Source: Muricea muricata (lineage: Eukaryota > Cnidaria > Anthozoa > Malacalcyonacea > Plexauridae). From it: a stretch of DNA of 64,000 bases. Of the stretch, positions 1,563 to 64,000 are shown in pieces; the stretch's first letter is position 1, and the number at the start of each line of letters is the position of its first letter. The DNA lies in NCBI GenBank assembly GCA_963855995.1, contig OY979717.1, positions 20,063,906 to 20,127,905 of the forward strand. The letters run 5' to 3'. The translations under genes were made by a program, and so were the position numbers. The notes below the pieces were generated by a model, which was given only the letters and a program-made list of their open reading frames with translations, searched no databases and was not told the DNA's origin.

Positions 1563-59236
<57,674 letters not shown>

Positions 59237-59349: not shown

Positions 59350-61593
<2,244 letters not shown>

Positions 61594-61970
61594 AAGAGTT
61601 AATGAACTTCAGAAACCTGGTGTGTACCGCATTTCTTGTGAATGTGGTTTGGTTTACATCGGTGAGCAGTGGCGAAGCCAGCCCGACATTTGGTCATGCA
61701 AATGCAAATTTTTCTGTGTTTTTAGACCGTATAAGGAATCAATTTTTAAAAAAATAAATAATGATAATGATTTGAATTTGCAAAGCATGACCAAATTGTC
61801 GGGCTGGCTTCGCCAATGTCGGTGAGACTGGCCGAATTCTCTCCTAAAAAACATAAGACTAATTACGAGAAAACCGAACTCGAAAAATCGATGAGCCGTG
61901 GCTAAACACTCATGGACCAATGACAATCGCATAAAAATGCAATTTTGAGCTCGAAACTGAATCCCCTATC
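61594..61970 (+). mobile_element. Penelope-like retroelement fragment, GIY-YIG domain, decayed
   Basis: Translation gives PGVYRISCECGLVYIG, then, after removing a nested insertion, ETGR and further on in shifted frames HKTNYEKTELEKS and QSHKNAIL. The GVY...YIG spacing and the ETGR and EHK...EKS order match the C-terminal GIY-YIG nuclease region of Penelope-like and related retroelements. Stop codons and frameshifts after ETGR show it is dead. No reverse transcriptase block is visible upstream. Confidence 0.6.
61667..61818. mobile_element. hAT-type MITE, 152 bp, nested in the GIY-YIG fragment
   Basis: The ends CAGTGGCGAAGCCAGCCCGA and (inverted right end) CATTGGCGAAGCCAGCCCGA continue inward for about 30 bp. 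A perfect 8-bp target duplication TCGGTGAG lies at 61659-61666 and 61819-61826. Removing the element and one duplication rejoins VYIG to ETGR in frame. hAT elements make 8-bp duplications. Confidence 0.92.
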
Positions 61971-62198
61971 AGGAACAAATAATTGGCATTACATTGTATG
62001 GCTGCAGCTCCAGTTCTCCGGCTCCAGTTCTGTGTATGGGTTTTCATCAGTCGCCTTCCAGAGACATTTGATCCTTTGTATTATTGTTTTGAAATAACAT
62101 TGCAACAGCTTCTTGACTTTCTGGGAAGCTTCGCGGCTAATCTATATACTAACAAGGTAGATCTATTTAAAAAGTTATCGTTTTAAAAGCATTTGAAA
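61971..62198 (+). other. Region upstream of the sulfotransferase
   Basis: A short CTCCAGTTCTCCGGCTCCAG stretch (about 62008) resembles the subterminal repeats of the MITE at 62844. TATTTAAA at 62164-62171 is a possible TATA-like box, 28-35 bases before the ATG. Nothing else is recognised. Confidence 0.4.
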
Positions 62199-62846
62199 AT
62201 GTCTGCAGATGAATGTGTCGGGGTTCAGCTCATCAAACGAAGACGGGCGCTCATGGTGACAGAACACGGAGTGAATCATGGTCTAAATTTCAAACCTCGT
62301 TCAGACGACGTGATTGTAACTCCGCCAAAACGTGGCACGACATGGATGCAAGAAATCCTACATCAGTTGCGAAGTGGTGGCGACATGTCTTTTGATGAGA
62401 TTAGCGATGTGGTACCTTTTATTGAGCTTGCTTATGATTTCAAGATTGATCTCAACGCCGAACACAATTATCAACCGCGATGTTACAAGACACACGCATG
62501 GTATCCTTCTTGTCCGAAAGGTGCTAAATACGTTGTGATCTACCGTGATCCCTGTGCTGCCTTCTACAGTTTTTTTAACTACTTCAAGGGCTGGTATTTT
62601 CAACCTGGGGAGGCTTCACTGTATGAATTTGTAAGAGACTTCTTAGTCGCTGGCAGCGGAGTTCCAAATACTAAGGCAGAATACGCGTCCTACTTTGTCC
62701 ATTTGGTGAGCTGGTGGGAACACAGGGATGATTCGAATGTTTTATTCCTGTTCTTCGAGGATATGAAAGATGATTTAGAGAGTGCAGTTCGAAAAGTTGC
62801 TGCTTTTATAGGAATGGAGGACGAAGAAAGGATTAAAAAGGCTTAG
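62199..62846 (+). CDS. Sulfotransferase N-terminal ORF as it stands (215 residues)
   Basis: The start is ATG at 62199; an in-frame TAA lies 15 bases upstream (62184), so there is no longer start except a TTG. The frame covers both PAPS-binding motifs and the candidate catalytic histidine, but ends at TAG (62844-62846), the first three bases of the inserted element. A product would lack the C-terminal third, including the RxNGxxG nucleotide-binding loop, and is probably inactive. Confidence 0.85.
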   Translation: MSADECVGVQLIKRRRALMVTEHGVNHGLNFKPRSDDVIVTPPKRGTTWMQEILHQLRSGGDMSFDEISDVVPFIELAYDFKIDLNAEHNYQPRCYKTHAWYPSCPKGAKYVVIYRDPCAAFYSFFNYFKGWYFQPGEASLYEFVRDFLVAGSGVPNTKAEYASYFVHLVSWWEHRDDSNVLFLFFEDMKDDLESAVRKVAAFIGMEDEERIKKA

Positions 62847-63582
62847 TGCTGTGCAAACTCCGGTTTTTTCACCTCCGGCACCGGCTCCGGCGAAAGAAAC
62901 TCCGGCTCCGGGAAAAAAACTCCGGCTCCAGCAGAAAATTTTAGGCTTGTGCAAATTTGTCAAAGTTGGAAATTTTTACAGTTTAAATTGGAAACGCCTT
63001 CTTTGTTTTTTATTTAACACTTCGCATTCTTCGCATTAACATTTTGTAATATGCATGATGCACGGTATTGTATTTGCAAAAACAAGACGCAAGGTCAATG
63101 TGGTTAAAACTTTTTATTATCAAACTTAATGAAAGCAAGTTTACCAATGTTTCCTGTTACAATGTTACCCGCCAAAGGAAAGACTCTGCTCTCAGACCTT
63201 ACTGATGAGGGTAATGTTTCAGTTATTCTTTAAAACACATATTCGACCTTTCATGTTGACAATAATGTCAATATTGTAAGCATAGCGTTGCAGCGTTTGA
63301 TGAAATTTTTAGGTAAAATTTTCACATGCATTACCGTCTTGCCGACGTCACAGTTATACAAAAATAACATAAAATACCATAATTATAATTTGTATGTTTG
63401 TGTCAAGCTGCATTGGGCTGTATTTACTTTTTCTTCGATGGAGTTAGTTTTTCGTTGATCTATGATAGAAGTTTGCAGCACAAATAAGTGCTGCCGGAGT
63501 TTTGCCGGAGGTGAACAAACTCCGGCTCCAGCTCCGGCTCCGGCAAAATGGGGCAAAACTCCGGCTCCGGTGCACAGCACTA
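62844..63582. mobile_element. hAT-type MITE, 739 bp, inside the sulfotransferase ORF
   Basis: The ends TAGTGCTGTGCA and its exact inverse TGCACAGCACTA are flanked by a perfect 8-bp duplication AAAAGGCT (62836-62843 and 63583-63590). Both subterminal regions (about 62855-62940 and 63490-63570) carry repeated ACTCCGGCTCCGG words, like transposase-binding repeats of hAT elements. The interior is AT-rich without a transposase frame. The clean duplication and intact host frame indicate a young insertion. Confidence 0.95.
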
Positions 63583-63590
63583 AAAAGGCT

Positions 63591-63872
63591 GTGCAAATGA
63601 GCTCCTTTGAATTTATGAAAAGAAATGAGCAAAAGTTTGCCGAGGCTCGTTTTCTACGTTACCGGAATGGAGTATGTGGCTTGCCGACTGACCAGGTAGT
63701 CAGCAAAGTCGTCTCGGGTTCTGTAACACAAGGACGAGAGTTGATGGATGAGAAAACGAAGGAAATAATTCGGGCCAAGTGGCTGGAAGTAGTTGGACAA
63801 CAAATTGGATTTCAAGATTACGATGAGCTTCGAATGTTGCGAACGTTGCGGAAGTATGTTGCGTCGTTATAG
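63591..63872 (+). CDS. Sulfotransferase C-terminal portion beyond the insertion
   Basis: 93 codons and TAG. It begins VQMSSFEFMKRNEQKF, holds the RYRNGVCG loop and ends RKYVASL. The frame stays open leftward through the right end of the inserted element to about 63462, so a read-through or internally started product could carry a short proline/alanine-rich leader. Confidence 0.8.
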   Translation: MQMSSFEFMKRNEQKFAEARFLRYRNGVCGLPTDQVVSKVVSGSVTQGRELMDEKTKEIIRAKWLEVVGQQIGFQDYDELRMLRTLRKYVASL

Positions 63873-63878
63873 AATAAA
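63873..63878 (+). promoter_or_regulatory. Polyadenylation signal AATAAA of the sulfotransferase
   Basis: A canonical AATAAA begins at the base right after the stop codon, implying a very short 3' untranslated region. Confidence 0.6.
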
Positions 63879-63882
63879 TTTA

Positions 63883-63991
63883 GATGGCGAATGATGGCGT
63901 CAGCCGTTCTTGTTTGAAATCATAAACGTGAAAGTTGACTGACTGCCGTTGTTGATTTCATACAAGAACGGCTGACGCCATCATTCCCATC
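63883..63991. mobile_element. TA-flanked foldback element, 109 bp
   Basis: The left arm GATGGCGAATGATGGCGTCA...GAAATCA (63883-63922) and the right arm TGATTTCATACAAGAACGGC...CCCATC (63953-63991) are inverses with one mismatch and one indel, around a 30-base loop. TA occurs at both sides (63881-63882, 63992-63993). It starts four bases past the AATAAA, so the cleavage site may lie inside it. Confidence 0.85.
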
Positions 63992-64000
63992 TATAACGAC

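Follow-up and report, generated by a model that had tools for sequence, protein, structure and literature searches.

Has a transposable element broken a sulfotransferase gene at this locus, how recently might it have done so, and could the gene still be expressed by splicing the insertion out? The question arises because a sulfotransferase frame near the downstream end of the 64-kb window (the whole stretch of DNA that was analysed) is cut in two by a short segment with transposon-like ends. A preliminary description of this DNA had proposed that a young hAT-type MITE splits an otherwise intact frame, giving a truncated or null allele.

The interrupting element has perfect terminal repeats and a perfect duplication

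The element spans 739 bp (62844-63582), and its ends, TAGTGCTGTGCA and TGCACAGCACTA, are exact reverse complements that form perfect 12-bp terminal inverted repeats. Identical direct copies of the 8-bp sequence AAAAGGCT lie on both sides of it, at 62836-62843 and 63583-63590. Both structures had been reported in the preliminary description, and both are confirmed at 62836-63590. The features of the locus are given below, read from the DNA itself except where another basis is named.

62199-62843, plus strand: 5' sulfotransferase part, 215 codons, with PKRGTTW, KTH and YRDP...S motifs (Pfam, PDB)
62836-62843, no strand: left copy of the 8-bp target-site duplication AAAAGGCT
62844-63582, no strand: candidate hAT-like MITE, 739 bp, whose first codon in the frame of the gene is TAG
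62844-62855, plus strand: left terminal inverted repeat TAGTGCTGTGCA
62858-62925, plus strand: left subterminal repeats, six CTCCGG hexamers (hexamer count)
63494-63570, no strand: right subterminal repeats, five CTCCGG and two CCGGAG hexamers (hexamer count)
63571-63582, minus strand: right terminal inverted repeat TGCACAGCACTA
63583-63590, no strand: right copy of the target-site duplication AAAAGGCT
63591-63872, plus strand: 3' sulfotransferase part, 93 codons and the stop TAG (matches of the joined protein reach residue 228-231)
63873-63878, plus strand: AATAAA directly after the stop codon, a possible polyadenylation signal

In a chance test, we counted perfect inverted repeats of at least 10 bp placed directly inside a perfect 8-bp duplication, for elements of 80-2000 bp. 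The window contains five such structures, four of them in an (AT)n array (60337-60607) and the fifth being the 62844-63582 element, while 100 first-order Markov windows, each as long as the real one, gave one in total. The window has 18 CTCCGG/CCGGAG hexamers, 13 of which are inside the element and within 100 bp of its ends. Its G+C content is 39.4% overall and 32.8% in the core (62945-63486), with 37.1% for the window. Nine near-matches to CTCCGGCTCCGG were found, and only one is outside the element (chance mean of 0.01 for the whole window): a lone CTCCGGCTCCAG at 62016-62027, some 170 bp upstream of the sulfotransferase start codon, a possible relic of a related element. We also observed an ATG-started open frame of 136 residues (63462-63872) that begins inside the element and reads on, in frame, through the 3' part of the sulfotransferase; in its element-coded part, the CTCCGG repeats are translated as a PAPAPAPA stretch.

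The anatomy of the element points to the hAT superfamily

Elements of the hAT superfamily create an 8-bp duplication and end in short inverted repeats of 10-25 bp (PMC3942097), and in maize the AAACGG hexamers near the ends of Ac bind its transposase (PMC3260210). Here, the duplication is 8 bp long and perfect, the terminal repeats are 12 bp long and perfect, and repeated short motifs are found near both ends (13 of 13 hexamers no more than 100 bp away). As for coding capacity, the element has 25 overlapping frames with a length of 25 aa or more, and none of the seven that were scanned reached its curated Pfam cut-off. The target AAAAGGCT fits neither nTnnnnAn, reported for Hermes, nor nnnTAnnn, reported for TcBuster, its positions 2 and 7 being A and C and its centre AG. 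Both are preferences of subgroups, nearly any 8 bp can reportedly serve as the Ac/Ds duplication (PMC3260210), and a single insertion site cannot decide a target preference or yield a consensus. Since no transposase, no second copy and no empty site was found for the element, and its target falls outside the Hermes/Buster preference, we call it hAT-like, a superfamily label that we infer from anatomy. With this qualification, the earlier view of a MITE-like, hAT-type DNA transposon interrupting a sulfotransferase frame is supported.

Searches for further copies gave little. BLASTN found no second copy in the 64-kb window, and the terminal repeat, with up to two mismatches, matched seven times in the window, five times besides the two ends of the element, for a chance mean of 4.92. 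In IMG/VR, the exact 20-base end pattern had no match, and the 18-base pattern had one (L002), which we rejected as a chance match because it lies inside a long frame on a contig of 51-65% G+C that has neither a CTCCGGCTCCGG repeat nor a second perfect end. No report of the element or of the insertion was found in the listed literature on hAT elements, MITEs, introners and splicing, and the papers that matched exact sequence letters were, by title, not on transposons.

The two halves of the frame form one sulfotransferase

Removing the element and one copy of the duplication leaves a single frame of 308 aa, from the ATG at 62199 to the stop at 63870-63872, with no stop or frameshift. This bears out the claim that the host halves share a frame and carry no other lesion, although the shared frame follows automatically from an insertion of the duplication type. 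The 5' part, of 215 residues, matches Pfam Sulfotransfer_1 (PF00685) with an E value of 3.8e-34 and 118.7 bits, as well as solved sulfotransferases (44 distinct PDB sequences at E values up to 0.001). It contains PKRGTTW, KTH and YRDP...S, which we take to be sulfotransferase motifs. The same part had no match in IMG/VR.

When the halves are joined, the PF00685 score rises from 118.7 to 135.3 bits (curated cut-off of 22), and the match crosses the junction to residue 231. The best PDB sulfotransferase, 7v1o, aligns over residues 25-228 of the joined protein. One distant bacterial relative (L001), among 27 pattern matches in GTDB genomes, aligns in one segment over residues 34-234 with 28% identity. 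Since both the Pfam and the PDB matches continue past the junction, the two halves belong to one former sulfotransferase. More precisely, the junction falls after residue 215 and the matches reach 228-231, which supports the 3' part as the natural continuation over its first 13-16 residues. Residues 232-308 of the joined protein have no Pfam or PDB match, and the 3' part taken alone matches no Pfam family or PDB sequence significantly. Sulfotransferases have a C-terminal PAPS-binding RKGxxGDW motif; by eye, the joined protein offers only a loose SGSVTQG stretch, where the L001 alignment is weak. Codon use adds little on coding status: the synonymous codon score is slightly above the composition null in the 5' part (0.028 vs. 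-0.027, SD 0.040) and below it in the 3' part (-0.096 vs. -0.034, SD 0.063).

Surroundings of the gene and the possibility of a dispensable copy

Upstream of the sulfotransferase lies a cytoplasmic dynein heavy chain gene (22156-59221, plus strand), for which 51 introns were inferred within the part that was compared. Its exons were placed with part of the human dynein heavy chain, which gave 55 plus-strand segments, one cross-match being dropped, and 51 GT-AG introns. The query began mid-protein; exons farther upstream are outside the comparison. Across 3,111 aligned columns, overlaps and read-through stretches counted in, identity between these 55 segments and the human protein is 65.2%, a level in keeping with an animal. 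About 3 kb lie between the end of the last dynein exon matched and the sulfotransferase.

Two other transposon-like pieces flank the sulfotransferase frame. The first is a 152-bp element (61667-61818) between 8-bp duplications TCGGTGAG (61659-61666 and 61819-61826), with terminal repeats that begin CAGTGGCGAAGCC and are 89% alike over 45 columns. Its first 12 bases together with the duplication define a kind of structure found 29 times in 100 random windows, a number compatible with chance on these features alone. Joining its flanks gives a frame that reads KPGVYRISCECGLVYIGETGR, which we take to resemble the end of a GIY-YIG nuclease, with a stop soon after; the unjoined frame (61523-61825) has no Pfam match. 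Weak matches to the interior of this element at 1831-1885 (76% over 55 columns) and 51890-51974 (72% over 87 columns) are perhaps diverged copies of the same family. The second piece is a long imperfect palindrome, TAGATGG...CCATCTA (63881-63993), which starts 8 bases past the sulfotransferase stop and is 83% alike to its own reverse complement over 116 columns. As RNA, 63873-64000 has a predicted fold of -77.2 kcal/mol. The palindrome resembles a further MITE, perhaps one with TA as its duplication.

This setting bears on whether the sulfotransferase was already a dispensable or silent paralogue, so that the insertion was without consequence. That the gene's 927 bp contain no intron, beside a dynein gene for which 51 were inferred, is what a retrocopy or one member of an enlarged gene family would show; there are also transposon-like pieces in the vicinity, and the codon use of the frame shows little sign of coding. 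Against this, 924 nt of the frame are free of stops and frameshifts, and no poly(A) tract directly follows the stop. We regard a dispensable copy as a possibility to be kept in mind, although an unlikely one.

Age of the insertion

The preliminary description called the insertion young, a claim that receives moderate support, from the undamaged reading frame but not from the perfect repeats and duplications. The latter are too short to date the insertion: with no mismatch in 20 compared positions, a pairwise divergence of up to about 14% is still allowed. The frame is more informative. For an unselected frame of 924 nt, the probability of remaining undamaged at 0.1 indels per substitution would be 0.254 at 1% substitution, 0.069 at 2%, and 0.019 at 3%; when indels are ignored, these values become 0.629, 0.448, and 0.283. 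Since neither half has acquired a stop or a frameshift, the insertion appears recent on the scale of neutral decay, and we consider it probably recent in this loose sense only.

The opposite reading would be that the element is old and fixed and that the split gene has been kept by selection as shorter proteins, either the truncated 215-residue product or the 136-residue one started within the element. It could draw on the frame 63459-63872, stop-free from the element into the 3' half with its ATG at 63462, and on the survival value of 0.283 at 3% substitution when indels are ignored. Since, however, the element-coded part of the shorter product includes the repeat-derived PAPAPAPA and the 3' part alone has no family match, we find this reading quite improbable.

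Possible removal of the element as an intron

Could the element be spliced out in the manner of an introner, leaving a gene that still works? The preliminary description had named removal as an intron as an outcome that would overturn it, and we checked this by splice-site scoring alone. In brief, donor and acceptor scores were derived from 50 of the 51 introns of the neighbouring dynein gene (median of 475 nt, range 79-1083), the intron at 56898-59098 (2201 nt, with a weak donor) being excluded. Intron boundaries had been chosen partly by a generic consensus, which flatters the scores of the true introns relative to an independent set. Leave-one-out totals for the 50 true introns ranged from 8.47 to 23.91. 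A first scan covered the 11 GTs in 62651-62850 and the 17 AGs in 63381-63660; a second took in every GT between the start codon and 62846 together with every AG in 62861-63860, with 410 pairs that keep the frame and are free of stops.

The candidates were GT 62846 with AG 63577, an exact GC-AG excision via the duplication, and nearby sites in the host and in the element. By our own reading, the pair 62846/63577 keeps the frame and adds five codons, much as introners may add a few codons that include the duplication (PMC9860276). Its donor, however, scores -3.79 and its acceptor -2.13, below the respective true minima of 0.55 and 1.75, and their sum of about -5.9 (added by hand) compares with a weakest true total of 8.47. 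Exact GC-AG excision has an acceptable donor (4.53 when GC is counted as GT) but an acceptor (63587) that scores -6.42. The host GTs 62706 and 62714 (2.97 and 3.03) stand at the 6th percentile of true donors, and the element AGs 63478 and 63468 (3.13 and 1.93) at the 2nd percentile of true acceptors. By score, then, the usable splice sites of an introner are lacking: among frame-keeping pairs whose donor lies in 62651-62850, the highest total is 6.15 (62714/63478), short of even the weakest of the 50 introns, and this pair would also remove host codons. A farther pair, 62594/63478, totals 9.26, above three of the 50 true introns, and is the only one of the 410 to reach true totals. It would not restore the enzyme, however, since 250 host bases (about 83 codons) would be lost and 262 residues left.

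Because the frame-keeping pairs near the insertion score below true-intron totals, clean intron-like removal of the element is unlikely under this scoring model, and that the gene still works through such removal is very improbable; some aberrant splicing around the element may nevertheless occur. That the element serves, under certain conditions, as a weakly used intron or contributes alternative exons, through AG 63478 and upstream host donors or through end sites that add five codons, so that altered isoforms arise instead of a null, would be the beginning of an intron derived from a hAT element, but we give it hardly any credence.

Predicted effect of the insertion and most likely explanation

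The inserted 747 bp are a multiple of three, yet they contain five stops in the frame of the gene, and the element opens with the first of them, the TAG at 62844. The predicted product therefore ends after 215 residues, and the in-frame TAG supports the truncation that had been foreseen for a truncated or null allele.

The explanation that we favour, with considerable confidence, is that a hAT-like MITE inserted into the sulfotransferase frame and broke it, with duplication at a staggered cut, a predicted truncation and a probably recent date. A transposase acting in trans would have inserted the non-autonomous, hAT-type element into codons 213-215 of an intronless frame. Staggered cutting at the target would have copied the 8 bp now seen on both sides. 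An mRNA reading into the element would be expected to encode the first 215 residues only and to lose the last 93. Most likely, one sulfotransferase gene would thereby have lost its function, or a large part of it, in this allele.

This is an ordinary gene-breaking insertion of a well-known kind and of low surprise, and it leaves knowledge of such elements unchanged. Its value is that of a clean case of a MITE breaking a coding frame, usable as a presence/absence marker between individuals and as a means of testing whether a hAT-like MITE family still moves in the genome.

Comparison with known systems

The joined protein differs from the cytosolic sulfotransferases of PF00685 (PDB 7v1o, 3bfx, and 1hy3) in that RKGxxGDW is not recognisable by eye, the last 77 residues are unmatched and the allele is interrupted; it resembles them in a match over most of the domain and in its PKRGTTW, KTH and YRDP..S motifs. 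With introners, which are introns derived from DNA transposons, the element shares its position inside a coding frame, bounded by terminal repeats and a target-site duplication, as well as one candidate splice that adds five codons in frame (PMC9860276). Unlike in introners, the splice sites at its two termini have lower scores than any donor or acceptor among the 50 introns taken from the neighbouring gene.

The element also resembles nonautonomous Ac/Ds-like elements and other hAT MITEs, such as maize Ds1 and Ds-l4 and Drosophila Mar, within what is described for them (PMC3260210, PMC3517528). There are differences: the end sequence has six of 11 positions in common with the Ac/Ds end TAGGGATGAAA (hand count), the hexamer is CTCCGG instead of the AAACGG of Ac (PMC3260210), the AAAAGGCT site does not fit the nnnTAnnn of Mar (PMC3517528), and no partner transposase is known for the element. 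The terminal repeats of Ds and Mar are 11 bp long, against 12 bp here (PMC3260210, PMC3517528). The 8-bp duplication, in turn, is common to all (PMC3260210, PMC3517528), the C/TAG-type ends and the hexamer repeats near both ends are like those of Ac/Ds (PMC3260210), and, like Ds1, Ds-l4 and Mar, the element combines no recognised coding capacity with insertion in a gene (PMC3260210, PMC3517528).
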